NCBI RefSeq assembly: GCF_023702635.1
Contig: NZ_CP098455.1
Location: 434,001-498,000 of the forward strand
Length of the DNA: 64,000 nt
Direction of reading: 5' to 3'
Source of the DNA: Spongiibacter taiwanensis
Lineage (GTDB): Bacteria > Pseudomonadota > Gammaproteobacteria > Pseudomonadales > Spongiibacteraceae
Positions 10,211 through 34,887 of this stretch are shown here, piece after piece (position 1 is the first letter of the stretch; each line of letters opens with the position of its first letter). Both the position numbers and the translations under genes were made by a program. The notes beneath the pieces are model-generated. The model worked only from the letters and a program-made list of their open reading frames with translations, was not told where the DNA came from and did no database searches.

Positions 10211-10469
10211 ACGCTGGACGCTGGACGCTGGACGCTGGACGCTGGACGCTGGACGCTGGACGCTGGACGCTGGACGCTGGACGCTGGACGCTGGACGCTG
10301 GACGCTGGACGCTGGACGCTGGACGCTGGACGCTGGACGCTGGACGCTGGACGCTGGACGCTGGACGCTGGACGCTGGACGCTGGACGCTGGACGCTGGA
10401 CGCTGGACGCTGGACGCTGGACGCTGGACGCTGGACGCTGGACGCTGGACGCTGGACGCTGGACGCTGG
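10211..10469 (+). repeat. Perfect 37-copy tandem heptamer (ACGCTGG)n
   Basis: 259 bases made only of the 7-base unit ACGCTGG, with no substitution in any copy. It starts at the base after the suhB stop codon. Because seven is coprime with three, every frame cycles through the same heptapeptide: RWTLDAG on plus and SSVQRPA on minus. None contains a stop, which explains long false reading frames here. The perfect identity points to recent expansion or strong homogenisation. Related seven-base repeats occur at other intergenic sites in the window. Confidence 0.99.
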
Positions 10470-10570
10470 AAAAGCATGATTTGGCGCCTGCGCATGTCAA
10501 GCATTTAGCGCACTTTTTTATTTCAACGCCAATCTCTATTCAGCGTCGCCCTCAAGATGAACTCTTAACC

Positions 10571-10661
10571 CTGTCGCCCCGGCCCCAGAGCCGGGGCCCA
10601 GTTGCTACCACTCGCAAAACTTTTGGATTCCGGCTCGCAAAAAGACGCGTCCGGAATGACG
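10571..10661. repeat. Palindromic intergenic repeat, copy A (~91 bp)
   Basis: The first of three related units. It starts CTGTCGCCCCGG, contains a GGCCCC...GGGGCC inverted repeat, then ATTCCGG...CCGGAATGACG near its end. The two arms can form two hairpins per unit. No coding potential is seen. Similar ATTCCGG/CCGGAAT extragenic repeats are common in proteobacteria. Confidence 0.85.
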
Positions 10662-10689
10662 GATACGTGGAATCTTCCGGAGGCGCCGC

Positions 10690-10710
10690 GTCTGACGTCC
10701 GACGTCAGAC
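10690..10710. repeat. Short GACGTC heptad repeat, perfect palindrome
   Basis: GTCTGACGTC and its exact reverse complement are separated by a single C. It can equally be read as seven-base units CTGACGT, CCGACGT, CAGAC. It lies between copies A and B of the larger palindromic repeat. Similar GACGTC heptads occur at 30235-30340 and 34865-34887. Confidence 0.8.
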
Positions 10711-10720
10711 CCACTCCGCT

Positions 10721-10812
10721 CTCCGTCGCCCCGGCCTCCGAGCCGGGGCCCAGTGACTCCCGAGCTCAAAGCCACTGGATTCCGGATCGCAAGCAGCGCG
10801 TCCGGAATGACG
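10721..10812. repeat. Palindromic intergenic repeat, copy B (~92 bp)
   Basis: The second copy of the unit at 10571-10661, offset by 150 bases. It shares the CGCCCCGGCC...GAGCCGGGGCCCAG first arm and the TGGATTCCGG...GTCCGGAATGACG second arm. The middle between the arms is more variable. Confidence 0.85.
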
Positions 10813-10851
10813 ACAACCCAATGGCCTTGTCACCCTTAAGACGAAATCCCA

Positions 10852-10943
10852 CCTCTGTCGCCCCGGCCCCGAGCCGTGGCCCAGCGGCTCCCATGCCCAA
10901 AACCCCTAGATTCGGCATCGCAAACAGTCCGCCCAGAACAACG
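10852..10943. repeat. Palindromic intergenic repeat, copy C (decayed)
   Basis: The third copy, offset by 131 bases from copy B. The first arm (TGTCGCCCCGGCCCCGAGCC) is well kept, but the second arm has decayed (ATTCGGCATCGCAAACAG, without the CCGGAATGACG end). This suggests it is the oldest of the three copies. Confidence 0.7.
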
Positions 10944-10978
10944 CTGACGCCGAAATCACACCACAACCCCTGCAGAAC

Positions 10979-11016
10979 AAAAAAGGCCAGCTCCTTTCGG
11001 AACTGGCCTTTTGTTT
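10979..11016 (-). terminator. Bidirectional Rho-independent terminator after secF
   Basis: The ten-base arms AAAAGGCCAG and CTGGCCTTTT enclose a 12-base loop. On the minus strand the stem is followed by a run of T, about 40 bases after the secF stop. On the plus strand it is followed by TTGTTT and could stop transcription coming from suhB. Confidence 0.88.
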
Positions 11017-11057
11017 ATCCTCACCTTTTCTAGCGTCCGGCGCGCGACCCCGGTCAC

Positions 11058-11981
11058 TCAAGGCAAATCGTCAATCTCCGCCCCTTCCTTCTGAATCACA
11101 ATCAGATCATCCTGACTGATATTCATGGTGAGCAGCAGATTGGCGACAATATAGATCGACGAGTAAGTCCCCACCCCAATACCGATAATCAACGCCAGCG
11201 CAAAGCTGTGAATCATATCGCCACCAAAGACCGCCAGCGCCACCAATACCAGCATTGTAGTGCCGGAGGTCGCCAGGGTCCGATCCAGGGTCTCGGTCAG
11301 GGAGATATTGACGACATCAAAGGCTTCATGCTTACGCAATTTGCGCAAATTTTCCCGAATCCGGTCAGCTACCACAATGGAGTCATTCAATGAGTAACCA
11401 ATGACCGCCAGAATCGCCGCTAACACCGTCAGGTCAAAATCCCACCCGACCAGGGCAAAGGCACCAAGGGTGATAATGACGTCGTGAACCAAGGCTGCCA
11501 CAGCACCCACCGCGAACTTGATCTGAAAGCGCATGGCGATGTAAATCAGCACCACAATCAGTGCCAGCAATACCGCCAGGCCGCCCTGCTCCCGCAGTTT
11601 TTCACCTACCTGAGGACCAACAAATTCAATCCGCAGCAACTCGACTTCCGAGGGCGCGTCGGCCCGCAGCGTCGCCAGCACCTCTTCACCCAGCTTAGGG
11701 CTCATGCCCTGGGGCAGGCGCACCAACACATCCGTGTCGGAGCCAAAGTTCACGACAATGGCATTTTCGTAGCCGGCGCCCGATAGCGTACTGCGCACTT
11801 CTTCCAAGGGCTGAGGCTCTTCATAGAGCACTTCAATCAATGTACCGCCGGTAAAATCCAGGCCGAAATTCAGCCCCTTGGTGGCCAGAATTCCGATGGA
11901 GGCCAATACCATGGCGATCGACAGCACCGAAGCCAGGCCCCGGAGCTTCATAAAATTAATAATTTTGCTTTCAGTAGACAT
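11058..11981 (-). CDS. secF: Protein translocase subunit SecF
   Basis: Inner-membrane RND-family partner of SecD. The SecDF complex uses proton motive force to pull proteins through SecYEG on the periplasmic side. At 307 residues it has a first TM helix and FGLDFTGGTLIEV motif near residues 35-50, a small periplasmic domain, and five C-terminal TM segments including NDSIVVADRIREN. It is separated from secD by 12 bases. No gene follows; a strong terminator lies just downstream. Confidence 0.97.
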   Translation of the reverse strand: MSTESKIINFMKLRGLASVLSIAMVLASIGILATKGLNFGLDFTGGTLIEVLYEEPQPLEEVRSTLSGAGYENAIVVNFGSDTDVLVRLPQGMSPKLGEEVLATLRADAPSEVELLRIEFVGPQVGEKLREQGGLAVLLALIVVLIYIAMRFQIKFAVGAVAALVHDVIITLGAFALVGWDFDLTVLAAILAVIGYSLNDSIVVADRIRENLRKLRKHEAFDVVNISLTETLDRTLATSGTTMLVLVALAVFGGDMIHSFALALIIGIGVGTYSSIYIVANLLLTMNISQDDLIVIQKEGAEIDDLP

Positions 11982-11993
11982 TGCTCAACCCCG

Positions 11994-13865
11994 TCAGATC
12001 GCCAGTTTCTTCACACGGCGACCGCCGTAGATCAGGTTAATAATCGCCCGAGTACCCATGATCGCCGTGAACATGGAGGTCAGAATCCCGATAGACAAGG
12101 TCACCGCAAAGCCCTTCACCGGCCCTGTACCCACGGCATACAGAATCAGGGCAACCAGCAAGGTGGTGATGTTGGCATCCATGATCGTGACGTAAGCACG
12201 ACCGTAACCGGCATCAATGGCATGCTGAGGTGCCATGCCGTTGCGCACCTCTTCCCGTATTCGCGAAAAGATCAGCACGTTAGCATCCACCGCCATCCCC
12301 ACCGTCAGCACGATACCGGCAATACCCGGCAGGGTGAGTGTCGCGCCCAGAATCGACATGGCCGCCACCAGCAGCACAATATTGAAGGCCAGCGCCGCCA
12401 CCGCGACCACACCAAAGACCCGGTAGTAAACCACCATAAACAGCGCTACCAAGCCCAGGCCGATTTGTACCGAGATAACCCCTTTGGCGATGTTTTCCGC
12501 GCCCAGCGAGGGCCCGACCGTACGCTCCTCAACAAAATCGATGGGCGCCGCCAGGGCACCGGCCCGTAGCAACAGGGCCAACTCATTGGCCTCACCGGGC
12601 GCGTTCAGCCCGGTAATGCGGAACTGCACACCCAGCGCATCGCGAATGGTCGCCAGACTGATGATTTTCTTCTCGTCGTAGGGAATCTTGATGATCTGCT
12701 CTTCACCCGCCTCATTCACTTCGTAGCGAGTGCGGCTCTTACGCTCGATAAACAGCACACCGAGCCGGCGATTGATATTGTGGCGGGTCATCCGGTGCAT
12801 CAACGTGCCACCTTCGCTGTCCAGGGTGATATTGACCTGGGGCATGCCGTTCTCGTCGAAGCTCGACTGGGCATTGGCGACCCGCTCACCAGTGATCACC
12901 ACATCGCGCTCCAGCCACGCCGAGGGCTCGCCGAGGCCGGGGTTACGAAACTCAAATTGCTCCCGATCAGACGCCGGCGCATCGTAACGGGCCTCCAGGC
13001 GGAATTCCAAGTTGGCTGTCTTGCCCAGAATCCGCTTGGCTTCTGCCGTGTCCTGGATGCCGGGCAGCTCAACCACGATGCGATTGCGGCCCTGCCGTTG
13101 TACCAAAGGTTCGGACACGCCCAACTCATTAACCCGGTTGCGCAGGGTGGTGAGGTTTTGGCCAACGGCGTAGTCTTCAATTTCCTTGCGCTTGGTGTCG
13201 CTTAGCAAAGCGACCAGATCAAAGTTTTCCGGGTCAGACTGCTCGGCACGCTGAGCGGTGAGATCGGTGTACTCTTTGCGGATAACGGACAACGCCTTGT
13301 CCCGCAACGCTTCCGAACGAAACTTGCCCTGGATTTCGCCGTTGTCTGCCAGCGAAACATAACCCCGGATACCCGCTTCCCTCAGCGCCTTCTTAATACC
13401 CGTGGTGTACTGGTCCAGGCGATTATCAATGGCCGCATCCGTATCCACTTCCAGCAGAAAATGCACACCACCACTCAAATCCAAGCCCAACTTCATTGCT
13501 TGGGCACCGAGGTTGCTCAGCCAGTCTGGGGTGGTAGACGCCTGGTTAAGCGCGACAATGTAGCCGTCGCCGAGGGCGCGCTGAATAATCCGCTGAGCCC
13601 GTAACTGGCCATCACTGGCGTAAAGGCGAATCAGCCCGCTCTTGCCATCGCTACTCGCCAATTCGCCAAAGTGCTCAATACCCGCCGCATCCAAGGCACG
13701 GGAAGCCCGTTCGATAGTCGGCTGATCGATCTTCATGCCGCTGCTTTGGCCGGAAATCTGCACTGCCGGGTCCGGCGGATACAGGTTGGGCATCGCGTAA
13801 AGTAAGCCGAAACCCAGCACTGCCAGTAACAGCAGATTCTTCCAAAGTGGATATTTGTTCAGCAT
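11994..13865 (-). CDS. secD: Protein translocase subunit SecD
   Basis: The large SecDF subunit, 623 residues. It has an N-terminal TM helix, the periplasmic P1 domain (motif KLGLDLSGGVHFLLEVD), the DDNGxPQV-like segment (here SFDENGMPQVNITL), and a C-terminal RND TM bundle with GMAVDANVLIFSRIREE. The usual upstream gene yajC is not next to it, because purL lies there instead. queA-tgt, which normally precede yajC-secD, are at 45.6-47.7 kb. Confidence 0.97.
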   Translation of the reverse strand: MLNKYPLWKNLLLLAVLGFGLLYAMPNLYPPDPAVQISGQSSGMKIDQPTIERASRALDAAGIEHFGELASSDGKSGLIRLYASDGQLRAQRIIQRALGDGYIVALNQASTTPDWLSNLGAQAMKLGLDLSGGVHFLLEVDTDAAIDNRLDQYTTGIKKALREAGIRGYVSLADNGEIQGKFRSEALRDKALSVIRKEYTDLTAQRAEQSDPENFDLVALLSDTKRKEIEDYAVGQNLTTLRNRVNELGVSEPLVQRQGRNRIVVELPGIQDTAEAKRILGKTANLEFRLEARYDAPASDREQFEFRNPGLGEPSAWLERDVVITGERVANAQSSFDENGMPQVNITLDSEGGTLMHRMTRHNINRRLGVLFIERKSRTRYEVNEAGEEQIIKIPYDEKKIISLATIRDALGVQFRITGLNAPGEANELALLLRAGALAAPIDFVEERTVGPSLGAENIAKGVISVQIGLGLVALFMVVYYRVFGVVAVAALAFNIVLLVAAMSILGATLTLPGIAGIVLTVGMAVDANVLIFSRIREEVRNGMAPQHAIDAGYGRAYVTIMDANITTLLVALILYAVGTGPVKGFAVTLSIGILTSMFTAIMGTRAIINLIYGGRRVKKLAI

Positions 13866-13937
13866 TGTTTCCCCATCTGTAGCTGCTTAGCCCGCAGCCC
13901 CTTCATTATGTAATTCGTTATTGCGATTAACCGGCGA

Positions 13938-16900
13938 TCAACCCAAGGCTTTACGGGCGTTGCGGAACAAGCGCAGCCAGCCAGCGTCTTCACCCATCTC
14001 TTTCGGCGCCCAGGAATTCTGCACCTTGCGATACACCCTTTCAGGGTGGGGCATCATGATGGTGAAACGGCCATCCTGGCTACTGACCCCGGCAATACCG
14101 GCGGGTGAACCATTCGGGTTGGCGGGATAGGTCTCGGTGACAGCGCCGTAATTATCGACATAGCGCAATGCCACCAGGCCGTTTTGCTGCAGCGTTTGCA
14201 ATTGACCGCCGCTAGCAAATTCGGCGCGCCCCTCACCATGGGCGACCGCCACTGGCAGGCGAGACCCTTCCATTCCAGCCAGTAATATGGAGGGAGATTG
14301 CGGAATTTCAACCATTGCCACCCGGGCTTCGAATTGTTCCGAGCGGTTGCGCACGAATCGCGGCCAGTGATCCGTACCAGGAATCAACGGCTTAAGGGTG
14401 GACATCATCTGGCAACCGTTACACACACCCAGAGCGAAGCTGTCGCTGCGGCCAAAGAAGGCACTAAAGTCATCCCGGGCACGGTTGTTGAATAAAATCG
14501 TCTTCGCCCAGCCCTCGCCAGCACCCAACACGTCGCCATACGAGAAGCCCCCGCAAGCAGCAAAGCCGGCAAAATCCTGCAGACTGACGCGACCACTGAG
14601 AATATCGCTCATGTGAACGTCTACTGCGGCAAAGCCCGCCCGGGTGAAGGCTGCCGCCATCTCTAGCTGACCGTTAACCCCCTGCTCCCGCAGAATCGCG
14701 ACTCTGGGTTTTGCCCCAGTGGCGATAAAGGGAGCAGCCACGTCGTCAGCCGGATCAAAGCTCAGGGCGACGCTCAACCCCGGGTCGTCTTCTTTTAAGC
14801 TATCGTACTCCTGCTGGGCGCAGGCCGGATTGTCACGCAGCGATTGCATTCGGTAGCTAAGTTCACTCCAGCGCCGCTGCAGGGTCAGACGCTCACCCTG
14901 AAAAACCGACTCGCCAGCCATTGAGACCTGTATCCGGCCGCCACTGATCGGCGCACCAATGACCTTCAGCGCATCGTCGCCCAGCCCCTGGTCACGGAAA
15001 AGCTGCTGAACCTCGGCCAGGTCCGCATGGCGAACCTGTAACAGCGCGCCGGCTTCTTCCGCAAACAGCTCTGCCAGTGGCGACTCCGTCGCTGGCAACT
15101 CCAGACGCAAACCGCAGTGCCCGGCAAAAGCCATTTCCAGCGCGGCGATCATCATGCCGCCATCGGAGCAGTCGTGATAAGCGAGAATTTTTTCGGCATC
15201 CAGCAACTGCTGGACCGCACAGAAAAAGCCCTTCAACAACTCGGGCTTATCCACATCGGGGGCGCAATCGCCCAGCTGGCCACACACTTGCGCCAGACAG
15301 CTGCCCCCCAGGCGGCGTTTGCCGGGGCTGACATCAACCCGAAGCAATACCGTCTCACCGCTGTCCATTTGCAATTGCGGGGTGACCGTCTTGCGCACAT
15401 CGCTGACCGGGCCAAAAGCGGACACGATCAACGACATGGGCGCAGTGACCGATTTGGCCTCGGCACCATCCTGCCATGCCGTGCGCATTGACATACTGTC
15501 TTTGCCCACCGGCACAGTGATACCCAAGGCGGGACAGAACTCCAGCCCCACCGCCTTCACCGCGTCGTACAACCGGGCGTCTTCATCGGCGTGTCCTGCC
15601 GCACACATCCAGTTGGCAGACAGCTTAATGTCGCTCAACTGCGCAGAACCCGGCGCGGAGCCTGGGCTGGCAATGCGGGCCGCAGCAATATTGGTGATTG
15701 ACTCTGCCACCGCCATACGGGCCGAGGCGCCAGCATCCAGCAGCGCCAGCGGGGTGCGCTCGCCCATTGCCATCGCCTCGCCGGCATAGCTATCGAGCCC
15801 GGAGGTCGTCACCGCACAATCAGCCACCGGCACTTGCCAGGGGCCGACCATCTGATCCCGATGCACCGTGCCGGTAATAGAGCGATCACCGATGGTGATC
15901 AAAAAATTCTTGGAGGCAACCGCGGGGAGACATAACAAACGGTCCAACGCCTCGGCGACACTAAGATCGCAACTCAGCGGCTGGGCTTTCTGGGCAATGC
16001 GCTTAACCTCTCTGTGCATCTTCGGCGGCTTGCCAAACAGCACTGACATGGGCAGATCAACGGGGTTGTTGCCAAAATGACGATCACCCAAGCGGAGAAC
16101 CTTCTCCTCCGTGGATTCACCCACCACCGCATAAGGTGCCCGTTCGCGCTCACACATCGCCGCAAAGACCGGTAGATCGGCAGGCGCGATGGCCATGACA
16201 TAGCGCTCCTGGGACTCGTTACACCAAATCTCCAGTGGCGACATACCTGGCTCGTCATTGGGCACATCGCGCAGCTCAAACTGACCGCCACAGCCACCAT
16301 CCTTCACCAACTCGGGAAAGGCATTGGAAAGACCGCCAGCACCCACATCGTGAATAAACGCGATGGGGTTTTGCTCACCCATGGCCCAGCAGCGATCGAT
16401 AACTTCCTGGCAGCGCCGCTCGATTTCGGGGTTCTGACGTTGCACCGAGGCAAAGTCCAGGTCGGCACTAGAGGCACCAGAGCTCATGGACGACGCCGCG
16501 CCACCGCCAAGGCCAATCAACATGGCCGGGCCGCCCAGCACCACCAGTTTGTAGCCGGCGGGAAAGGGCGGCTTGTCGATATGTTCGGCTTTGATATTGC
16601 CGTAACCACCGGCAATCATGATCGGCTTGTGATAACCGCGCCGCTCTGCACCGGCGCCGGTGTCGATATCTTGCTCGTAGCTGCGGAAGTAACCACACAA
16701 ATTGGGCCGGCCAAACTCATTGTTAAAGGCTGCGCCCCCGATTGGGCCTTCCAGCATAATTTCCAGCGCCGACACAATGCGCTCGGGTTTGCCGTAGTCC
16801 AGCTCCCAGGGCTGAACAAAATCCGGCACCTGAAGGTTGGACACACTAAATCCGGTCAAGCCTGCCTTGGGCTTGGAGCCACGACCCACGGCACCCTCGT

Positions 16901-17852
16901 CCCGAATCTCGCCACCAGCCCCGGTACCCGCCCCGGAGAACGGCGCAATGGCGGTGGGGTGGTTGTGGGTTTCCACTTTCATCAGAATGTGAATGTTTTC
17001 ATCGCTAAAGCGATACTCGCCATCGGTCGAGCTCGGGTAGAAACGCAGCGCCTGGGGCCCCTCTATGACGGCAGCGTTGTCAGCATAGGCGCTTAGCACC
17101 CCTTCCCCACCCAATTGATAGGTATTTTTAATCATGCCAAACAGGGAGTGAGGCTGGTCCTCGCCATCAATCGTCCAGCTGGCATTAAAAATCTTGTGGC
17201 GACAGTGCTCGGAGTTTGCCTGGGCAAACATCATCAACTCCACGTCGCTAGGGTTGCGACCGAGCTGATTGAAACTGTCGGTCAAATAGTCGATTTCGTC
17301 GTCGGCCAGCGCCAAGCCAAGATTGGCGTTGGCTTGCACCAGGGCTTCGCGGCCACCGCCGAGCACGTCCACCGCAGTCATCGGCTTCGGGCTCTGCTGA
17401 GAAAATAAAACAGCGCCCGCCTCTGGGGTATCCACCACCGCCTCAACCATACGGTCGTGGATCGCCGCCATCACCACCTGCTGTTGTTCGCTGGTTAAGG
17501 GAGCAGCAACCTTAAGTTGATACAGTATGCCGCGCTCCAGGCGCTGCACCTTTTCTAGGCCGCAGTTATGCGCAATATCGGTGGCTTTACTGGACCAGGG
17601 AGAAATTGTGCCCGGCCGCGGGATAACGAAAAACGGCAACCCCTCAAAATCATCGGCCTCGCCGGTCGGGCCGTAACGAAGCAATTTTTCCAGTACCTCG
17701 GCCTCGTCACTATCGAGCGCCACCCGAGTCTGGGCGAGGTGGACAAACCGGGCGCTGACCGCCTCCAGATCGGGAATGGCCTGGCGCAGTTGCCCCAACA
17801 GTTTGGCTATGCGGAAATCAGAAAGCGCGGGGGCACCGGGTAGGATCAACAT
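13938..17852 (-). CDS. purL: Phosphoribosylformylglycinamidine synthase (single-chain)
   Basis: Fourth step of purine synthesis, forming FGAM from FGAR with ATP and glutamine. This is the large proteobacterial form of about 1300 residues: an N-terminal PurS-like part, two AIR-synthase-type halves ([19 protein letters not shown] and GGRIQVSM regions), and a C-terminal glutaminase with GVCNGCQMM and MPHPERVYR. The ATG at 17852 aligns with known starts ([15 protein letters not shown]). It is divergent from mltF, as in E. coli. Confidence 0.97.
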
Positions 17853-17891
17853 GCGGGGCGACAACCTCGATCGACGGAATTGAAGCCGGCC

Positions 17892-17965
17892 ATTGTATAG
17901 GAAATAGCGCCAAATTTTTATCCGAAATACGTTTTATGGCTCTGCCCCGACGCGGCCGATACAAT
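17892..17965. promoter_or_regulatory. Divergent purL/mltF promoter region
   Basis: TACAAT-type -10 boxes face both ways: minus-strand TACAAT at 17897-17892 toward purL, and plus-strand TACAAT at 17960-17965 toward mltF. The -35 elements are poor, as expected if activators or repressors such as PurR contribute. No clear PurR operator was seen. Confidence 0.35.
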
Positions 17966-17998
17966 GGGCCCTCCTTTATTGGAAGATTGCATTTAGCT

Positions 17999-19444: not shown

Positions 19445-19540
19445 TCCACCCTGCAACGCCCCATCACCGACGGCAGTCGCAAACATCGACGAAAAACCCT
19501 CAGACCATTCGAGTGACTAGCGGTAGACCCGCAATCGAAA

Positions 19541-19990
19541 TCAATACTCCGATGGCTGGGCGAAGGTGATGTTGGCGATCTTGTCCAGATTGAGCCAGAT
19601 TTTCTCAGACCAGCGCTCAACACGACCAATCCCATCCCGACAATATTCCAACTGCTGCTTGACCACCTCTTCCAGCCGAAAAATCCCTTTTTGGGTTCCG
19701 CCCACATGAAACGCCAGACTGTCGTCGGGAAAACGGCGACTGGTAAAATTGGGTTGACTCAATTGGAATTCGATTTGATGCCGGTTGTCGTTGGCCAACC
19801 GCTTCATCAAGTCTTCGACCTTTTCGTCGGGGCCTTCAAAATAATGGAGGAACACCCCGTTGTCCCAAAAGAAAAGATAGCTTGTAACACCGGCAACCGA
19901 ATTCTTGGTGCGCGCCTGTCTGGCCAGTGTTTTCAAATCCACATCACTCAGTGGCTGGGTCGCATTACTGAAGTAAACGAAGGCTTTCAC
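19541..19990 (-). CDS. BLUF-domain-like protein lacking the photoactive glutamine
   Basis: A 149-residue protein whose first ~95 residues match the BLUF flavin photosensor fold: VYFS with Tyr6, TKNSVAGVT with Asn30, EGPDEKVEDLM, NDNRH and RRF. The Gln that drives the BLUF photocycle, normally in FxQxLEG, is His49 here (FLHYFEG). The C-terminal Trp/Met motif is also absent (DDSLAF). It may bind flavin without normal signalling, or be light-independent. The GTG at 19990 has an AGGGGA site five bases upstream and gives the canonical domain start. It sits between mltF and tadA. No output domain is recognisable in the last 50 residues. Confidence 0.8.
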   Translation of the reverse strand: MKAFVYFSNATQPLSDVDLKTLARQARTKNSVAGVTSYLFFWDNGVFLHYFEGPDEKVEDLMKRLANDNRHQIEFQLSQPNFTSRRFPDDSLAFHVGGTQKGIFRLEEVVKQQLEYCRDGIGRVERWSEKIWLNLDKIANITFAQPSEY

Positions 19991-20212
19991 AGCTTCCCCT
20001 AAGGAATTTCGACTTTTCCGGCATTGCCCGTTCTCTCCATAGGACAACACCTTTCCCGACAACGGCTAACCTCGCCCTGTCACCAACTCCCCCCAGGACA
20101 GCACCCCACCGCCCTTTTTGCATTCTACCCATCCCGAAAAGGCCGAAAACTCCGTAAAACCCACAAACATCGCCCATCATCCGTGGCTTATCGTTCATAA
20201 GTCAGATTGCAC

Positions 20213-23607: not shown

Positions 23608-25095
<1,488 letters not shown>

Positions 25096-25109
25096 CTAGA
25101 ATCCTCGCA

Positions 25110-25138
25110 ATTTTAAGTGATGCGGCGGGTTGAGTAAA
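25110..25138 (-). promoter_or_regulatory. Likely guaBA promoter
   Basis: On the minus strand TTTACT (-35) and TAAAAT (-10) are separated by 17 bases, about 36 bases before the guaB ATG. This is good sigma70 geometry. A stringently controlled GC-rich discriminator (TGCGAGG) follows, plausible for a guanine-nucleotide gene. Confidence 0.5.
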
Positions 25139-25207
25139 CCGATTGTTTGGCCAACAACGCTGCCGCGCCACACACGATAAGCCGGCCTGCGGTGCTACAA
25201 TGCCGCG

Positions 25208-26563: not shown

Positions 26564-26571
26564 GCCGGAAA

Positions 26572-27816
26572 TTACTGACCGCCCTCGCGACTCAACTCGG
26601 CCGCCCAACCGCGCCGTACCTCAGCCATGAAAGGCGACTCCCCGGGCACCTCGATACCCTCCAGCAGGCGCTGGGAAAAATCGGCGATCAGCTCCGCGGC
26701 CGGATCGCTGGCCAGCCCGGTGTGACGAATCTTGACAAATTTGTCGCCCCGTACGGCGAGCACCACCCGGGATCGAAAGTGGTTATCGAGGGCGTCGGCA
26801 TAGTCGACGTGAAAGCGCACCACCGGTTCGGCCTCGGGTCCTGCCTCCACTTGCGGATCACTGAACTGGGGCGCAAGAAATTCCTCGGCCTCGAGCAAGC
26901 GGCTGATTTCCTCACGAATCGCCTCTAACTCAGCCTCTATCGCGATCGCCGAATTCTGCCAGGCTATCTGGCGGATCGGGTAGACAAACACATCCGCCGC
27001 ATCCTCAAATTGTGCTGGGCGAAGATAATGGAACTGCATACCGAGAAAGGGATGATGAAATTGCCGCGAACCCGCCACCTGAAAGGCGCCCACCGCCTGG
27101 GGCATTTTCAACTCGCGATCGTAGTCCGTTGCACCCAATGTACGGCTCAGAAACTGCGCGCTGAACAATTCAGGGTGGGACTGCAGGGTGTGCGTCACCT
27201 TCTCAGCGATCTGCCTGGCCAAAGGCGTCTCGAAATCCTTGCCCAAGGTGAACAGCGAAACGGATCGCTCATCCTCCACCGATACATCAAAGTTGGATAG
27301 CAACTGATTAAACCAGTACAGCTTCGCCTCTACCCTAACCTCCTTGGTCTGGCGCATCGGCAGAACCAGCAGCGTGGCACCGGACAGCGCGGCACTGCCA
27401 ACTTCGGCTGCCGTCTTCTCGTTGAAATCTGCGATAGAGAAACTCAAACGGTAGGGAATATCATCATCGGCGCGACGAACTTCCGCGAACAGGCCTTGAG
27501 CTTCTATCGCCGTTCGCAGCTTTTCCAGCGGTGGCGCGGTAAAGCGGCAATGGTGTAATAACGAACGCTGCTCAAACGCCTGACACTTGGCCAAAAATTC
27601 GCTGGAGGGGCGCTGAAAAAAAACCGACACCGCCGGGAGCTGGTTGGTTTCTAGATTGGTAGCCCCGGTAACGGCAGTGTCGCGGGCTTGCGGACTTGGC
27701 GTGGTGGCGCAGGCCAGCAAACCGAAGCACAAAGAAATCAGGCAAAGCGCCTTAAGCTGACGTAAAACAGTAATTTTGCGGTGCTCCAAAACCCTGAGCA
27801 AAGATAAAGTAGCCAA
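26572..27816 (-). CDS. Predicted lipoprotein of unknown function
   Basis: 414 residues. A hydrophobic N-terminal segment ends at a lipobox, GLLAC (Cys at about residue 36), followed by an Asn/Thr-rich stretch, so an outer-membrane lipoprotein is predicted. The body is a soluble mixed alpha/beta sequence with an acidic helix (EAELEAIREEISRLLEAEE). I recognise no family. No ATG is available near the 5' end: the start is TTG at 27816 or a later TTG near 27789 with AGGG just before it. It begins 15 bases after the Crp-family gene, so the two are probably co-transcribed. Confidence 0.75.
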   Translation of the reverse strand: MATLSLLRVLEHRKITVLRQLKALCLISLCFGLLACATTPSPQARDTAVTGATNLETNQLPAVSVFFQRPSSEFLAKCQAFEQRSLLHHCRFTAPPLEKLRTAIEAQGLFAEVRRADDDIPYRLSFSIADFNEKTAAEVGSAALSGATLLVLPMRQTKEVRVEAKLYWFNQLLSNFDVSVEDERSVSLFTLGKDFETPLARQIAEKVTHTLQSHPELFSAQFLSRTLGATDYDRELKMPQAVGAFQVAGSRQFHHPFLGMQFHYLRPAQFEDAADVFVYPIRQIAWQNSAIAIEAELEAIREEISRLLEAEEFLAPQFSDPQVEAGPEAEPVVRFHVDYADALDNHFRSRVVLAVRGDKFVKIRHTGLASDPAAELIADFSQRLLEGIEVPGESPFMAEVRRGWAAELSREGGQ

Positions 27817-27831
27817 TAGTGTGAACAGGCC

Positions 27832-28485
27832 CTAGTAACTTTCCGGCAGCTTCTTCTTAATGATGATGTGTCGGCCTTCCACTTCGACGTACTCGCCGAT
27901 GGTCAGGTCCTTGAGGATACGCGCAACCATTTCACGAGAGGAACCCACCCGATCAGCAATTTCCTGCTGGGTCAGCTTTTCCTCGATACGCATCTGCCCG
28001 CCATCACCGAAGGGTTCGGCAAGGCTGGTCAACACCTTGACCACGCGACCGTAGACATCCTGCAGGGCGAGGCTTTTCACATCATTGGTGAGTTTACGAA
28101 TGCGGCGGGTCAGGTTCTTATTCAGAATCCGGGTAATATTGGGGTGAAGGTCAAGGATCGCTTTGAAGTCTTCCTTGTACACAATCCGCACCCGGGTCGC
28201 GTCCATCGCTCTTACCGACGCGGAGCGCTTGTCATCGTCCAGCAGAGCAAGCTCGCCAAAATAGTCTCCGGATTCGAGAATATTCAGCACAAAGTCCTTG
28301 CCACTTTTATCGCTGCAATACACTTTCACCCGGCCGGACTCGATCACGTACAGCGAATCTGCAGTGTCACCTTCGTGAATGAGCACGGTATTTTTGGCGA
28401 ACTCCCGCATTACGCTGGTATCGCGCAAAATTTGCAGCTCGTCTGGCGACAGCCCGTCAAACAAATCCACATTCTCGATACTCAT
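27832..28485 (-). CDS. Crp/Fnr family transcriptional regulator
   Basis: 217 residues: an N-terminal cyclic-nucleotide-binding fold (about 1-120) and a C-terminal winged helix-turn-helix (TQQEIADRVGSSREMVARIL). The phosphate-binding cassette reads FGELALLDDDKRSASV, keeping the Glu, Arg and Ser expected for cyclic nucleotide contact, so a cAMP or c-di-GMP type ligand is possible. There is no Fnr Cys cluster. The ATG at 28485 was chosen over one at 28503 because it starts the domain directly. It is followed closely by an unknown lipoprotein gene. Confidence 0.9.
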   Translation of the reverse strand: MSIENVDLFDGLSPDELQILRDTSVMREFAKNTVLIHEGDTADSLYVIESGRVKVYCSDKSGKDFVLNILESGDYFGELALLDDDKRSASVRAMDATRVRIVYKEDFKAILDLHPNITRILNKNLTRRIRKLTNDVKSLALQDVYGRVVKVLTSLAEPFGDGGQMRIEEKLTQQEIADRVGSSREMVARILKDLTIGEYVEVEGRHIIIKKKLPESY

Positions 28486-28574
28486 CGACTCCACTCCTGA
28501 CAATGCCGCGTTGGAAATAAACCAACCGTGCCAAAAAACGCTGGAAGGACCGGTCGAAGTTCCGGCTTGAGCTT

Positions 28575-28602
28575 ATAGTACAGACCCATAAGTTATTGTC
28601 CA
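28575..28602 (-). promoter_or_regulatory. Candidate promoter of the Crp-family gene
   Basis: On the minus strand TGGACA (-35) and TACTAT (-10) are 16 bases apart, about 90 bases before the ATG. Confidence 0.45.
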
Positions 28603-28650
28603 GCCTAGGGTTTGGCGGAGCACACAAAAGCGGAAAATCTGGCTGGCAAG

Positions 28651-28691
28651 AAACCAGGCGACCGCCTCACTGTGTCACAGGGCGGTCGCTG
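28651..28691 (-). terminator. Long hairpin downstream of lysS
   Basis: Arms of 13-14 bases, ACCAG(G)CGACCGCC and GGCGGTCGCTGGT, differ by one bulged G; a second small palindrome (CTGTGTCACAG) lies in the loop. It begins about 28 bases after the lysS stop. There is no T-run, so it may act with Rho or protect the mRNA 3' end. Confidence 0.5.
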
Positions 28692-28719
28692 GTATATCGG
28701 CGATATCTACAAGCGCTTG

Positions 28720-30219
28720 TTACGCTTCAGGTCGCATATGGGGGAACAGCAAAACGTCCCGAATGGAGGGTGAATCGGTAAACAACATCACGAGACGGTC
28801 GATACCGATCCCCTCGCCCGCGGTGGGCGGCAAACCGTATTCCAGCGCTGCAACAAAGTCGGCGTCGTAGTGCATGGCCTCATCATCTCCGGCCTCTTTT
28901 TCGGCAACCTGGGCCATAAAGCGCTCCGCCTGATCCTCGGCGTCATTCAGCTCCGAGAAGCCGTTGGCCAGTTCACGACCACCCACAAAGAACTCAAAGC
29001 GGTCGGTTACGAAGGGATTGTCATCACTGCGCCGGGCCAGTGGCGATACCTCTGTAGGGTACTGGGTGATAAACGTCGGCTGATCCAGCTTATGCTCAGC
29101 GGTTTCTTCGAAGATCTCAATTTGGATTTTGCCCAGCCCCCAAGTGTCTTTCACGTCTATGCCAAGGGACTTGGCGACCGCGATTGCCTGGGCTTTATCA
29201 GCCAACTGTTCGGCAGTCACATTGGGGTTATACTTGAGCACCGCGTCGAATACCGACAGGCGCGCAAAGGGCTGGGCGAAGTCGTATTCGCTGCCCTGGT
29301 ATTGAATGGTGGTTGTGCCAAGGACCTCTTGGGCCACCGTGCGCAGCATGTCTTCGGTTAAATCCATCAGGTCGTTGTAGTCCGCATAGGCCTGATAAAA
29401 CTCGATCATAGTGAACTCGGGGTTGTGCCGAGTCGAAAGGCCCTCGTTGCGGAAGTTGCGGTTGATTTCAAATACCCGCTCAAAGCCGCCCACCACCAGC
29501 CGCTTCAAATACAGCTCCGGTGCAATACGCAGATACATATCAAGATCCAGAGCATTGTGATGGGTGACAAAGGGCTTGGCGCTGGCGCCACCGGGAATCA
29601 CCTGCATCATCGGTGTTTCCACTTCCATAAAGTCGCGCTGCTGGAGGTAATTGCGAATGCTGGTAATCATCTTTGAGCGAATCGCGAAGGTGCGGCGGGA
29701 CTGCTCGTTCATAATCAGGTCGACATAGCGCTGGCGGTAGCGCATTTCCTGATCCTGCAGGCCATGAAATTTATCCGGTAGCGGACGCAGGGATTTGGTC
29801 AGCAGGCCCGCTTCTTCCATATACACATACAGATCGCCCTTGCCGGATTTATGCACCGGACCACAGGCAAACACGATATCGCCGATGTCCCAGTGTTTGA
29901 TTTCTTCAGCAAGTTCTTCCGGCAGTTGCTTTTTATCCACATAGGCCTGAATGCGACCGCTCATATCCTGCAGCACCAGGAAGGGCCCGCGCTTGGCCAT
30001 AATCCGCCCGGCCACCTTGGCCTTGCGATCCAGCGCTTCCAGTTCTGCCTTGTCCTTGTCACCCAGCTCCTCTTGCAACTGCTGGGCATAGGCATCCCGG
30101 CGAAAGGCATTGGGGAAGGCATTGCGCTTTTCGCGAATGGCCGCCAGCTTGCTGCGACGCTCGGCGATCAGGCGGTTTTCTTCCTGCGCGGTGATTTGGG
30201 TATTTTCTGTATCAGACAT
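28720..30219 (-). CDS. lysS: Lysyl-tRNA synthetase, class II
   Basis: Charges tRNA-Lys. An N-terminal OB-fold anticodon-binding domain (about 60-150) and a class II catalytic core are present: motif 2 region [23 protein letters not shown] and motif 3 [16 protein letters not shown]. At 499 residues it is of normal length. It lies downstream of prfB, the conserved prfB-lysS pair, here separated by GACGTC heptad repeats. Confidence 0.98.
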
Positions 30220-30234
30220 GGATAAATATCTCTG

Positions 30235-30340
30235 GTCGGACGTCGGACGTCTGATGTCGGACGTGTAGTGCTAAATATCGGGTCGGACGTTAAAACCCTG
30301 GGGCTGCTTTGCGTCAGACGTCAGGCTTCCGACGTCCGGC
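30235..30340. repeat. GACGTC heptad repeat cluster between prfB and lysS
   Basis: Two short tracts of degenerate seven-base units. At 30235-30264 the units read CGGACGT, CGGACGT, CTGATGT, CGGACGT. At about 30311-30340 they read CAGACGT, CAGGCTT, CCGACGT, CCGG. A single GGTCGGACGT lies between them. The cluster covers nearly the whole prfB-lysS gap and would be transcribed in the shared mRNA. Confidence 0.8.
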
Positions 30341-30348
30341 CCAGTTCT

Positions 30349-31447
30349 TTAAAGCCCAAACTTCAAACTGGCCTCAATAAACATATCCAGATCGCCATCC
30401 AGCACGGCACCGCAGTTGCTGGTTTGAACATTGGTGCGCAGGTCTTTAATGCGCTGGTCATCCAGTACGTAACTGCGAATCTGGCTGCCCCAGCCGATAT
30501 CGGCCTTGCTATCTTCCAATGCTTGGGCGGCGGTGTTGCGTTTCTGCAGCTCCAGTTCATAGAGCTTGGCGCGCAGCATCTTCCAGGCGTTATCCCGGTT
30601 CTGGTGCTGGGAGCGTTCGGTCTGGCACTGCACTACCGTATTGGTGGGCACGTGGGTCAAGCGCACCGCCGAGTCAGTTTTGTTGACGTGCTGACCACCG
30701 GCGCCGCTGGCCCGGTAGGTATCGGTACGCACATCGGCGGGGTTGATATCGATCTCAATATTGTCGTCAATCTCAGGGGAGATAAACACCGAGCAAAAAG
30801 AGGTGTGGCGGCGATTGCCAGAATCGAATGGCGATTTGCGCACCAGGCGGTGAACACCCGTTTCGGTGCGCAACCAACCGTATGCGTACTCACCCTGCAC
30901 ATGAATGGTGGCACTTTTGATACCGGCCACCTCGCCATCGGAGGCCTCGACCAGTTCGGCCTTAAAGCCCTTGTCTTCACACCAGCGCAAGTACATGCGC
31001 AGCACCATGCTGGCCCAATCCTGAGCCTCGGTACCGCCAGAGCCAGATTGGATATCCAGGTAACAGTTGTTGGGGTCCATTTCACCGGAAAACATGCGCC
31101 GAAATTCCAGGGTGGCGAGCACCGCTTCCAGCTTCTTCACATCTTCCTGCAGCGCGTTGATGGTGTCTTCGTCATCCTCTTCCGCCGCCATAAGCAGCAG
31201 CTCTTCGGCGTCGGTGATTCCGGCATCCAGCTCGTCGATGGAGGCCACCACCAATTCGAGGCTGCTGCGCTCCCGACCCAGCTCCTGGGCCCGGGCAGGA
31301 TCATCCCACACAGAGGAATCCCCCAGTTCTAGCTCAACCTCGGTCAAGCGCTCTTTCTTGTTAGCGTAGTCAAAGGTACCCCCTAAGCGTATCAGTACGC
31401 TCAGTCATATCCTTGAGGGCATTGCGCAGGGCATTGATTTCTAACAT
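30349..31447 (-). CDS. prfB: Peptide chain release factor 2, with programmed +1 frameshift
   Basis: Recognises UGA and UAA stop codons and triggers peptide release. The gene is in two frames. A 25-codon first part runs from ATG 31447 to CTT at 31375-31373, followed by an in-frame TGA. Shifting one base forward at 31372 gives GAC and opens a 340-codon second part. The total is 365 residues, exactly E. coli RF2 length. The SPF stop-recognition tripeptide falls at residues 205-207 and the GGQ catalytic motif at 250-252. High RF2 favours termination at the TGA, giving autoregulation. It is a normal functional gene, not a pseudogene. lysS follows. Confidence 0.97.
31370..31384 (-). promoter_or_regulatory. 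prfB programmed +1 frameshift site
   Basis: The minus strand reads AGGGGG TAC CTT TGA C. An internal Shine-Dalgarno-like AGGGGG sits three bases before the slippery CTT next to an in-frame TGA, followed by C. This is the classic RF2 autoregulatory signal, differing from E. coli only in TAC instead of TAT. Confidence 0.97.
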
Positions 31448-31520
31448 TGAGTGCGGTCCGAGCCTGATTTTACAAAAGGCGGGCATTTTACCTGATGGAC
31501 CGGGTGGCGGAAAGGCTGGT

Positions 31521-31665
31521 GCGGGAGACGGGAGACGCAACTACATGCGGCTTTGCCGCTCTCGCAGCATCCCGCGGCGAAGCCGCGGCCGCTTTTGCGT
31601 TTACCGTGGGCCCAGCCCGCGAGCACAGCGAGTGCTTTGGCTGCTCCCGTCCAGCGTCTCCCGTC
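31521..31665. repeat. MITE-like element with 12-bp inverted ends between recJ and prfB
   Basis: The perfect 12-base inverted repeats GACGGGAGACGC (31527-31538) and GCGTCTCCCGTC (31654-31665) bound a non-coding segment of about 115 bases. The segment holds several small hairpins: GCGGC-TTT-GCCGC, CCGCGGC-GAA-GCCGCGG and AGCAC...GTGCT. The right end supplies the recJ stop codon. Read on the minus strand, the right end is three seven-base units (GACGGGA, GACGCTG, GACGGGA), and the left end also repeats GGGAGAC twice, which links it to the heptamer family. Confidence 0.7.
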
Positions 31666-33397
31666 AAACCGCCCGTAAATGATCCACCAACAGCTGCAGC
31701 GACAAATTTTCCCGCCACAGGTTGCTATCCAGCTTATAGACCAGCTCCACCAACTCCACGCCAGTATCAGGCCAGACTGCGGTATCGATGTTAAAAGCGA
31801 TGGCATCTATGAGGGGCGCATCAGTGGCTTCGGGCAGCAGCACCATTTTCAGGTGTTTTTCGCCGACCAGACGTTGCTGCTGAATGCGGAAGCGGCCATG
31901 AAAGACCGGCGCGGGGAAGGCCTGCCCCCAGGGCCCGGCATTGCGCAGCAGCTCGGCATTTTCCAGGGTCAGGCTGGCCTGGCTCAGTTCGCCATCACTG
32001 TGGACCACCGCTTCCAGGTCGTCCTCACTGACCAGCTCGGCCACGGTATCAGCAAAGGCCTGGCGAAAGGTGTCAAAGTCTTTGCGCGCCAGACTGAGCC
32101 CCGCCGCCATGGCGTGACCGCCGAATTTGCGCAGCAGTTGGGGGTGGCGCTTGGCGATCAAATCCAGGGCATCGCGCATATGCAGACCGGGGATGGACCG
32201 GGCCGACCCCTTGATTTCGTCATTGCTGGTTTCGGCAAAGGCAATCACCGGGCGGTGGAATTGTTCCTTGACCCGGGAGGCCAGTATCCCCACCACACCC
32301 TGATGCCAGGAGGGTTCGAACAGACACAAACCCGCGGGCAGATCGGCGCCCTCTAGGTGCAGATGGGACAGGGCCCGAAAGGCCTCGTCCTTCATACTCT
32401 GCTCAATGCTGCGCCGCTCCCGGTTGAGGTCATCCAGCTCGGCCGCCAGGTTCAGGGCTCGATTGGGATCCTCTTCCAACAGGCAGCGGATGCCGATGGT
32501 CATATCATCGAGGCGCCCCGCGGCGTTGAGGCGCGGTCCCACGGTAAAGCCCAGATCGCTGGCCACCAGACGGCCGGCGTCGCGGCCCGAGACCTTCAAC
32601 AGCGCGGAGATGCCGGGGCGACAGCGCCCCGCCCGAATCCGGCGCAGGCCCTGCTCAACCAGAATGCGGTTGGCATGACTGAGGGGCACCACATCAGCCA
32701 CTGTGCCCAGAGCAACAATATCGAGAAACTCGGCCAGATTCGGTGCCGAGCGATCGACAAAGGCGCCCTGCTCTCGCAGCTTGCTCCGCAGGGCCAGCAG
32801 CAGATAAAACATCACCCCCACCCCTGCCAGGGCTTTATCCGGAAACTCGCAGCCGGGCTGGTTGGGATTCACAATCGCGGCAGCCTTGGGCAACTCATCG
32901 CCGGGCAAATGGTGATCGGTCACCAATACCGGAATCCCCAGCGCCCTCGCCGCCTCAACCCCGTCGATACTGGAAATACCGTTATCCACGGTGATAATCA
33001 GATCGGGTTGGCGCTCGGCGGCCACGGCGACTATCTCGGGGCTAAGGCCGTAGCCATACTCGAAACGATTGGGAACCAGGAAGTCGACCTGGCGAGCACC
33101 CAGTGCGGTCAGACCCAGCATGGCCAGGGTGGTGCTGGTTGCGCCGTCGCAGTCGAAGTCGCCAACGATCAGTAGGCGCTTATTGCCAGCAATGGCCGCT
33201 ACCAACAATTCCACCGCCACGTCCAGGCCCTTCATGGTCGGCGCGGGTAAGGCATCCAGACCCAGCGACAACTCTTGAGCGCGGCGCAACCCCCGATTGT
33301 GGTACAGGCGGGTCAGCAGATCGGGCAGTTGGGGGAATTCTGGCGCCGGACCCTCTTCGGCCCGACGCTCACGCAGGACAATGCGAGGAAATGGCAT
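31664..33397 (-). CDS. recJ: Single-stranded-DNA-specific exonuclease RecJ
   Basis: 5'-3' ssDNA exonuclease of the RecFOR and mismatch-repair pathways. DHH-family motifs are intact: motif I DFDCDGATST (residues 80-89), VDNGISS, and motif III DHH at 161-163. A C-terminal DHHA1 part contains KFGGHAMAAGLSL. At 577 residues it equals E. coli RecJ. Its ATG overlaps the thrC stop by one base (TGATG), so they are translationally coupled. Confidence 0.97.
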   Translation of the reverse strand: MPFPRIVLRERRAEEGPAPEFPQLPDLLTRLYHNRGLRRAQELSLGLDALPAPTMKGLDVAVELLVAAIAGNKRLLIVGDFDCDGATSTTLAMLGLTALGARQVDFLVPNRFEYGYGLSPEIVAVAAERQPDLIITVDNGISSIDGVEAARALGIPVLVTDHHLPGDELPKAAAIVNPNQPGCEFPDKALAGVGVMFYLLLALRSKLREQGAFVDRSAPNLAEFLDIVALGTVADVVPLSHANRILVEQGLRRIRAGRCRPGISALLKVSGRDAGRLVASDLGFTVGPRLNAAGRLDDMTIGIRCLLEEDPNRALNLAAELDDLNRERRSIEQSMKDEAFRALSHLHLEGADLPAGLCLFEPSWHQGVVGILASRVKEQFHRPVIAFAETSNDEIKGSARSIPGLHMRDALDLIAKRHPQLLRKFGGHAMAAGLSLARKDFDTFRQAFADTVAELVSEDDLEAVVHSDGELSQASLTLENAELLRNAGPWGQAFPAPVFHGRFRIQQQRLVGEKHLKMVLLPEATDAPLIDAIAFNIDTAVWPDTGVELVELVYKLDSNLWRENLSLQLLVDHLRAV

Positions 33398-34794
33398 CAG
33401 GCGCGGATATTGGCCGCCATAAACTGCTGAACAGCAGCCATGTCGTTGTCCAGGACTTCGTAACGCTCGTCCAAGTCAAACAGGTCAGCCATATGCAGTG
33501 GCAGCGGCGGCGCCGAGGGGTAGCCCGCCTTCATTACCGCTTCCGGGAATTTGGCCGGATGGGCGGTCGCTAGGGTCACCATCGGCACGCTCTTATCCCG
33601 CCAGCAATCCCGGGCGGCTTTGACGCCGATGGCTGAGTGCGGGTCCAGCAGGTACTCGCTGGCCTGATAGACCGAGGCAATGGTCGCTACAGTGTCTTCA
33701 TCATTGACCGCACTGCTGGCAAACAGCTCACGCACTTTATCGAAGGCCCCCGCCGGAATGGAGGTGGTCTCGGTGTTCATCTTTTGCATCAAATCGGCAA
33801 TGGCGGCGCCGTCCCGGTCGAAGCAGTCAAACAGCATCCGCTCAAAATTGCTGGACACCACAATATCCATACTTGGCGACAGGGTGTGCTGCAGCTCGTG
33901 TTTTTCAAACTGATTGCTACTGATAAAGCGATGCAGAATATCGTTCTGGTTGGTAGCCACCACCAGCTGATCGATGGGCAGGCCCATGCACTTGGCCAGG
34001 TAGCCGGCATAAATATCGCCAAAGTTGCCGGTGGGCACCGAGAAGCTGACCTTGCGGTCGGGGGCGCCCACAGCATAGGCGGCGTAGAAGTAATAAACGA
34101 TCTGGGCCATGATCCGCGCCCAGTTAATCGAGTTCACCGCTACCAGCTGCCGGCCTTCCGGCAGGAAGCTCTGATCGGCGAAGCTGGCTTTGACCAATGC
34201 CTGGCAGTGGTCAAAGTGTCCCTTCAATGCGATGTTGTGGATGTTGTCGCCCACGACGGTAGTCATCTGGCGGCGCTGAACTTCAGACACCCGCTGATAG
34301 GGGTGCAGAATAAAAATATCGACATTGGCGCAACGCTTCACACCCTGGATAGCGGCAGAACCGGTATCACCGGAAGTGGCACCCATCACCACGACTTTTT
34401 GCTGACGCTTTTCCAGCACGTAATCCAGCAGACGGCCCAGCATCTGCAGGGCAAAATCCTTAAAGGCTAGGGTCGGGCCCTGGAACAGTTCCAACAGCCA
34501 TTCGTTGTGGCCCAGCTGCACCAGCGGCGCGATGGCCGGGTGACGGAAGTCCACATAACTGTCTTCGATAATCGCCTTCAGATCGGCATCGGGAATACAG
34601 CCCGCGACAAAGGGCTGAATGATTTCAAAGGCCAACTCGGTGTAGGGCAAGGACGACCACGCGGCGATCTGCGCTTTGCTGTACTGCGGCAGCGATTCGG
34701 GCACATACAAACCGCCGTCTGGCGCCAGGCCAGTCAGCAGAACGTCTTCAAAGTTTAGTGCGGGGGCCTTGCCCCGGGTGCTGATGTATTTCAC
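33397..34794 (-). CDS. thrC: Threonine synthase
   Basis: PLP enzyme making threonine from O-phosphohomoserine, the last step of the pathway. The PLP lysine is in TLAFKDFALQ, and the phosphate-binding GATSGDTGSAA and SFSVPTGNFGDIYAG segments are intact. At 465 residues it is the longer gammaproteobacterial/yeast-like class. It sits between hom and recJ, the common Pseudomonas-type hom-thrC arrangement (thrB not adjacent). Confidence 0.97.
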   Translation of the reverse strand: MKYISTRGKAPALNFEDVLLTGLAPDGGLYVPESLPQYSKAQIAAWSSLPYTELAFEIIQPFVAGCIPDADLKAIIEDSYVDFRHPAIAPLVQLGHNEWLLELFQGPTLAFKDFALQMLGRLLDYVLEKRQQKVVVMGATSGDTGSAAIQGVKRCANVDIFILHPYQRVSEVQRRQMTTVVGDNIHNIALKGHFDHCQALVKASFADQSFLPEGRQLVAVNSINWARIMAQIVYYFYAAYAVGAPDRKVSFSVPTGNFGDIYAGYLAKCMGLPIDQLVVATNQNDILHRFISSNQFEKHELQHTLSPSMDIVVSSNFERMLFDCFDRDGAAIADLMQKMNTETTSIPAGAFDKVRELFASSAVNDEDTVATIASVYQASEYLLDPHSAIGVKAARDCWRDKSVPMVTLATAHPAKFPEAVMKAGYPSAPPLPLHMADLFDLDERYEVLDNDMAAVQQFMAANIRA

Positions 34795-34864
34795 GTTGTT
34801 CTCGATTCTAGCTACAGTAGTCGCGTAAAGCCCACCCTAGAGCGGACTCCTTCAAATAATCATT

Positions 34865-34887
34865 GGTCGGACGTCAGACGTCAGACT
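34865..34887. repeat. GACGTC heptad repeat after hom
   Basis: Seven-base units CGGACGT, CAGACGT, CAGACTC lie within ten bases of the hom stop codon, between hom and thrC. They belong to the same family as 10690-10710 and 30235-30340. Confidence 0.8.

Follow-up and report, generated by a model that had tools for sequence, protein, structure and literature searches.

Spongiibacter taiwanensis (Gammaproteobacteria; Pseudomonadales; Spongiibacteraceae) carries, in a 64,000-nucleotide stretch of its genome (contig NZ_CP098455.1, positions 434,001 to 498,000; hereafter the window), several intergenic tracts of tandem seven-base repeats (heptads), one of them an array of 37 copies. A preliminary description, made from the letters alone, placed seven such tracts in a single class of extragenic element with a GACGNNN frame, and the question raised by the locus is what kind of element this is. 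Here, most of the tracts were found to be arms of hairpin elements, one copy of which, elsewhere in the same genome, holds a gene of the family PF05635 (IVP), the protein of 23S rRNA intervening sequences (IVSs). The tracts are thus probably arms of mobile hairpin elements of the IVS/IVP kind, whose IVP-less copies would spread in trans and would be moved by IVP.

Seven-base tracts are intergenic and lie behind genes

Tracts and arrays were searched for in the window and in the whole genome, a single contig of 3,714,182 bases, from which a sample of 264 kb was taken (the window and ten 20-kb stretches placed irrespective of repeats). All seven tracts were located within a few bases of their described positions, and the names given to the flanking genes agreed with NCBIfam (secF, lysS, prfB, recJ, thrC and hom; the suhB-like inositol monophosphatase scored slightly below the cut-off). 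The longest tract comprises 37.3 exact copies of GACGCTG (10206-10470 according to a tandem-repeat program). The pattern GACGNNNGACG matched the window 47 times, compared with 1.8 matches expected by dinucleotide shuffling and 6 in the richest shuffle; 36 of these matches fall inside the 37-copy array and 11 elsewhere. Exact tracts of period 7 in the 264-kb sample numbered five in intergenic and none in coding DNA, the corresponding sums for all other periods from 4 to 20 being four and 14. A looser scan of the same sample returned five clusters of multiple matches, every one of them in intergenic DNA; of its 16 single matches, 14 were coding. Four of the five exact tracts fall in the window, as do four of the five clusters, so that the window is unusually rich. 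Two-unit GACG matches in this genome were likewise concentrated in intergenic DNA (49, or 1.315 per kb, versus 3, or 0.013 per kb, in coding DNA). The genome-wide degenerate search that the preliminary description had proposed yielded 34 ends of arrays with at least three units versus 7 for a reversed-pattern control, an imperfect one since it also picks up other heptad arrays (AACGCAG).

The position of the tracts relative to genes was surveyed at 37 loci with multiple matches (32 from stretches chosen for their heptads, one from an unbiased stretch and four from the window), with gene edges that are approximate because genes were called by a simple codon-usage script. All but one of these loci (36/37) had a gene end on a flank, and a single locus was majority-coding. 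The nearest stop codon lay at a median distance of 14 bp, and within 30 bp in 23 of 36 loci, while the median distance to the nearest start codon was 74 bp. The gaps that hold them were co-directional in 25 cases, convergent in 11 and divergent in 1, compared with 133, 27 and 30 in the background, meaning that divergent gaps are depleted (1/37 versus 30/190). The preliminary description had tied its family to intergenic enrichment and to proximity to stop codons, and both are present; its single class of intergenic, seven-base-period element is therefore borne out by the genome scans and the site survey alike. The heptad pattern is also common to related species. Zhongshania accounts for 20 of the 42 named stretches that carry the same arms, and one Spongiibacteraceae genome for 12.

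Most tracts are arms of hairpin elements

Although the heptads themselves are real, most tracts are not the free-standing tandem repeats they had been taken for. Arm pairing was scored on 30 of the 34 array ends of the genome. Nine of the 30 were of the GACGTC type and could not be scored because GACGTC reads identically on both strands, which left 21 assessable ends with non-palindromic units. An inverted partner, defined as a mirrored two-unit tract within 900 bp, was found on the inner side of 15 of these 21 ends and on the outer side of none. Most heptad tracts are arms of hairpin elements, and in the prfB-lysS and recJ-prfB gaps the two tracts that had been counted as separate sites are in each case the inverted arms of one element (Table 1). 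At the sites read, heptads, often ending in GACGCAAA or GACGCTAA, are followed by a body tens to several hundred bases long and then by the complement. Each of the two complete window elements folded as RNA into one long hairpin, with 30225-30350 (prfB-lysS) reaching -48.7 kcal/mol (z score -4.91) and 31510-31670 (recJ-prfB) reaching -81.8 kcal/mol (z score -2.97); 0 of 200 shuffles were as stable in either case. The hom-thrC tract has no clear partner arm.

Element bodies are unrelated between sites, and long arrays are tied to particular bodies. One conserved body, AAAGCATGATTTGGC, is abutted by nine arrays in the genome stretches read (17-48 units of GACGCTG, GACGCTA or GAGGCTG); the body is exact at eight of them and has a mismatch at the ninth, and the 37-copy window array is of this kind. 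A second body, TTAGTGTTGC, is abutted by three AACGCAG arrays of 12-33 units and by one short AACGCAG array; the AACGCAG array at locus L111 does not run into it. The unit is nearly uniform within an array, which points to growth from one or a few units. The 37-copy array, rightly singled out as an extreme member of the class, is a single overgrown arm.

An IVP gene lies between heptad arms

Inside one armed copy elsewhere in the S. taiwanensis genome lies a gene whose four-helix-bundle product matches PF05635 (E 4.1e-34) and TIGR02436; the sole solved relative found was XCC0516 of Xanthomonas (2gsc). PF05635 matches were present in 11 of 18 genomes of the genus, ten of which had one strong match each, and all ten strong genes lie in the metK-ahcY gap between inverted heptad arms (gap genes were checked on single representatives and the remaining ones by eye). 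The eleventh genome, G013, was counted as lacking IVP, its match being weak (E 6.3e-7) and unaccompanied by arms.

When compared with the IVS/IVP class, the two complete window elements have terminal inverted repeats capable of forming a long stem, and the window tracts have the period-7 tandem arms that we propose here as a further class feature. The window copies sit between protein genes rather than in 23S rRNA, and none of them contains an IVP (S23p) gene; they are therefore at most IVP-less relatives of IVS/IVP elements.

In several families, IVP elements occupy what by eye appears to be the metK-ahcY gap; others are next to genes for sulfate assimilation (loci L221-L226, L230, L233 and L237, and the genus loci). 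These gaps look as if they were hot spots for IVP elements.

Period-7 inverted arms accompany IVP across bacteria

For each PF05635 locus, 260 bp on each side were scored for the best inverted match and for self-match at lags of 2-20, a strict pass being an inverted score of at least 27 with a lag-7 match of at least 0.45 (thresholds set after the first 41 loci). One locus was excluded (L245, the same as L172). By this test 68 of 89 strong IVP loci passed versus 0 of 218 control genes, all taken from the S. taiwanensis genome. Among loci fetched once the thresholds were fixed, which are the 28 class loci and the 20 plasmid loci below, 39 of 48 passed. Passes were distributed as 10/10 loci of the genus, 16/24 of the order, 23/28 of the best-scoring loci of the class, 3/7 from Hydrocarboniphaga, one Planctomycetota and one Cloacimonadota genome, and 16/20 of named plasmid loci, which had been picked for breadth (14 Cyanobacteriota and one each from Gemmatimonadota, Alphaproteobacteria, Bacteroidota, Bacillota, Spirochaetota and Chloroflexota) and of which all 20 had inverted arms. 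Self-match was highest at a lag of 7 or 14 for 78 of 89 strong loci versus 18 of 218 controls. Averaged over the 28 class loci, it reached 0.61 (lag 7) and 0.59 (lag 14), compared with ~0.27 at other lags. Seven weak or partial PF05635 matches, some Avd-like by eye, were scored apart (L180, L252 and L254-L258, of which L180 and L252 exceed the Pfam cut-off), and none of the seven had strict period-7 inverted arms. Bacterial 23S rRNA itself houses two IVP loci with period-7 inverted arms, L228 and L243.

The heptad sequence varies by lineage while the period mostly stays at 7. Of the GACGNNN frame of the preliminary description, the period of seven consequently stands, and GACG is this lineage's version of the repeat; it was rejected as the defining motif of the class since other lineages have different heptads at the same period. 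A universal heptad word was not upheld either, as 49 loci gave a weak consensus in which the last base is G in 92% of the weight, with an information content of 2.63 bits versus 1.98 (standard deviation 0.06) for permuted columns. Arms scored a mean of 37.3 against their own partner (49/62 at 27 or more) versus 16.1 against arms of other loci (20/744), indicating that both arms change together.

Phage records searched for IVP gave no match. Several plasmid IVP genes are flanked on both sides by CRISPR genes (cas6-cas4 twice, cas10-cmr3 and cas2-cas1) or by restriction genes (L326, L327, L334, L341 and L338), and one 1.5-Mb genome (G628) has eleven weak PF05635 matches, ten of which share one of two identical scores.

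Heptads and IVP co-occur and turn over together

Within the genus, ends of arrays with at least three GACG units numbered 5-34 in the ten strong-IVP genomes and 0-1 in the other eight. On a tree of prfB and lysS, in which some branches are little supported, IVP and heptads change together at several places, as seen in the contrasts of G000 with G012 and G004, of G001 with G007, G013 and G014, and in the absence of both from G006 and G008 within an IVP-bearing clade. Across the order, GTCNSACGTCNSACGTC occurred at least twice in 14 of 293 genomes, and 13 of these 14 carry PF05635, compared with 43 of 293 overall (Fisher p ~3e-11, uncorrected for phylogeny); two of the four genomes with a single match were IVP-positive. 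Across the class, GGGAATN heptads occurred in six of 369 genomes, five of them IVP-positive, compared with 77 of 369 overall, and the reversed pattern, itself a heptad word, in seven genomes, six of them IVP-positive (an unplanned reading). One genome with four array ends, G019, lay outside the PF05635 search.

Shared gaps were found filled in some relatives and empty in others. Judged by eye, an armed element is present in 8 of 10 strong-IVP genomes versus 0 of 11 other family genomes in the prfB-lysS gap, and in the same proportions in the gap 3' of lysS. The recJ-prfB element was present in S. taiwanensis alone among 19 genomes in which the gap was recovered, and the metK-ahcY gap of the 11 checked genomes lacking a strong IVP held no heptads. 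Occupied sites also differ in their occupant. At the site 3' of lysS, G011 has GACGGGA arms versus GTC arms in G002 and G015, and G003 and G017 differ from G016. At metK-ahcY, IVP type and arm type both differ between the sisters G003 and G017, and likewise between G011 and either G002 or G015: the protein and its two arms are exchanged as a unit. These filled, empty and exchanged sites show turnover of the elements, not its mechanism.

Features of the window

The coordinates of the tracts and their assignment are collected in Table 1. A small hairpin (CAAAGCACTCGCTGTGCTCG...) lies at 31590-31645, within one of the two recJ-prfB element arms, and similar pieces were seen by eye near arms at L045 and L117. 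Positions 10530-10900 hold a composite repeat with ATTCCGG, TCCGGAAT and CCCCGGC..GCCGGGG hairpins, whose ~150-bp tandem units recur elsewhere in the genome, always near heptads at the loci read. At 45496-45542, a 13-base unit (TCACCGCGACTGG) is repeated in tandem, with 3.6 exact copies. Rfam matched one tRNA in the window and nothing else.

Table 1. Heptad features of the window
Feature	Position	Strand
37-copy GACGCTG array 3' of suhB, one overgrown arm	10210..10470	+
Conserved body adjoining the array, starting AAAGCATGATTTGGC	10471..10515	+
GACGTCN heptad tract within a longer composite repeat, suhB-secF gap	10689..10710	.
prfB-lysS element, one arm, GACGTCN type	30235..30264	.
prfB-lysS element, inverted partner arm	30311..30340	.
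recJ-prfB element, one arm, GACGGGA type	31521..31538	.
recJ-prfB element, inverted partner arm, overlapping the recJ stop codon	31645..31665	.
GACGTCN tract in the hom-thrC gap without clear partner, solo or decayed arm	34865..34887	.

Mobile elements, selected signals or slippage

The family of the preliminary description is real, and its members are best read as IVP-less relatives of IVS/IVP elements. This reading starts from direct observations, namely the anatomy, the period, the linkage of IVP and arms across phyla, co-occurrence, filled and empty sites, and whole-element exchange at one site; from these, a role of IVP in element movement is likely. An element has two arms around a short variable body: the left arm comprises a few tandem heptads, often about four, and the right arm is its inverted complement, so that the RNA or a single DNA strand can fold into one long hairpin. 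Some copies (one per genome in the genus) carry the IVP gene, and the others relate to them as miniature inverted-repeat transposable elements (MITEs) relate to transposons. In the mechanism that we propose, IVP would bind the heptad arms, perhaps with one ring subunit per heptad, an arrangement made attractive by analogy with the Xanthomonas protein of the family, a ring of five four-helix bundles (PMC4990558). Together with a hypothetical nicking or copying partner, IVP would then move or copy the hairpin into transcribed gaps, mostly right behind stop codons. A partner would be needed because, to our knowledge, IVP has no catalytic domain. As Avd of diversity-generating retroelements falls in the PF05635 family, a reverse transcriptase is one candidate. 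Long arrays such as the 37-mer would be single arms of particular subfamilies, grown most simply by slippage or unequal exchange and uniform thereafter.

Several observations weigh against this account. Heptads occur without a PF05635 match in G152 (92 heptad matches and short armed elements), in G406 and G510 (4 and 3 heptad matches) and in the Spongiibacteraceae genome SAT61 (G020; 40 array ends, genome 70% complete), and in G011 many of the listed array ends are of the GACGGGA type, yet its own IVP has GTC-type arms. Conversely, 21 of 89 strong IVP loci failed the strict test, and three plasmid IVP loci (L331, L332 and L334) have inverted arms of period 8. Over long range, IVP similarity and heptad similarity correlated weakly (Mantel r 0.17, p 0.0005, 70 loci; r 0.12, p 0.007 without the genus), lending little support to specific matching of IVP and arm over long distances. 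No target-site duplication was found, filled and empty sites being too diverged to read one, and no catalytic partner was identified, no search for transposases, REP-associated tyrosine transposases (RAYTs) or reverse transcriptases having been made. Finally, association is not causation, and IVP could be a passenger.

On another reading of the same data, the hairpins are under selection as signals for processing, termination or regulation, IVP is an RNA-binding regulator that acts on them, and movement is a rare event of other cause. The position behind stop codons and the depletion of divergent gaps fit such a role, as do the co-occurrence with IVP and the plain hairpins found at the lysS 3' site in some relatives. 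Signals under selection are harder to reconcile with gaps that, in close relatives, are empty or, at one site, hold unrelated armed elements, with unrelated element bodies and with arrays that overgrow to 48 units, and we consider this explanation rather unlikely. It also appears quite improbable that a conventional transposase or RAYT moves the elements as ordinary MITEs, one or more of which carry the IVP gene as a passenger. Their inverted ends, the shortness of their bodies and their intergenic location are indeed MITE-like, but period-7 arms that accompany IVP in many lineages with different heptads are not expected of a passenger. Simple polymerase slippage, with no element at all, suits arrays that are nearly uniform and variable in length, and slippage or unequal exchange probably does explain array growth. 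It does not produce inverted complementary arms, however, and it leaves unexplained both the attachment to one gene family and the filled and empty sites among relatives; since the inverted arms and the IVP link need more, slippage was rejected as a full account and is very improbable.

With mobile IVS/IVP-like elements as the preferred reading, the class is broader than we found it described in the open PMC literature, and the findings suggest one widespread, largely overlooked kind of mobile DNA. More tentatively, it is possible that many bacterial seven-base repeats and the 23S rRNA IVSs form one pan-bacterial class of mobile hairpins, in which a ring-shaped IVP would read the arms in seven-nucleotide steps almost regardless of sequence, and which might copy itself by an undescribed route, perhaps through RNA given that Avd shares the protein family of IVP. 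Mobile elements of this kind would help to account for the preference for a repeat length of seven in intergenic bacterial DNA, would point to a role for a protein family that is widespread but of unknown function, and would unite repeats hitherto described as separate curiosities of single lineages. The movement of rRNA intervening sequences, a question decades old, would become testable in free-living bacteria with dozens of array ends outside rRNA.

Relation to known systems

The preliminary description knew of no named family for such tracts, but heptad repeats are already in print. The IVS of Coxiella burnetii has a variable number of tandem GACAGAT heptamers before its gene and a 28-bp terminal stem, and older proposals cited in the same paper hold rRNA inserts to be remnants of transposition, or the insert gene to serve mobility (PMC4990558). 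The present elements resemble such 23S rRNA IVSs with S23p/IVP in their terminal inverted repeats, which can form a long stem, and in the IVP/S23p gene inside armed copies; they differ in location, with known IVS copies lying in rRNA and the present copies, with or without IVP, in intergenic gaps. Heptads are in print for the Coxiella IVS; here, heptad arms are a general feature and are also present at the two rRNA copies L228 and L243.

GGGAATC of Xanthomonas and GGGGA(C/T)T of Nostoc are intergenic heptads, commonly of four units, and two Xanthomonas genomes hold 70 and 75 inverted GGGAATC pairs (PMC4692102). They are like the present arms in being intergenic, of about four units and in inverted pairs, and unlike them in being described as quadruplex-forming. 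In genome G669, GGGAATC-like heptads are found on either side of a partial PF05635 match that lies between accB and accC. The TAACTGA repeats of Beggiatoaceae (PMC4679880) and the heptanucleotides of Calothrix (mentioned in PMC4692102; STRR heptads), compared by description, are likewise dispersed and intergenic, with long arrays in some genomes; our own cyanobacterial data are IVP flanks on 14 plasmids. In the open PMC literature, with most subscription papers and preprints outside the search, the link between heptads and IVP was found for one Coxiella rRNA insert, and no paper was found that joins the Coxiella, Xanthomonas and Beggiatoaceae reports.

Avd belongs to the same protein family as IVP, and the Avd-like matches scored here were among those without strict period-7 inverted arms. 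Overall, the present elements share with MITEs their short, intergenic, non-coding nature and their inverted repeats, and are set apart from them by having no known transposase and by tandem heptad arms of fixed period and free sequence that are tied to IVP.

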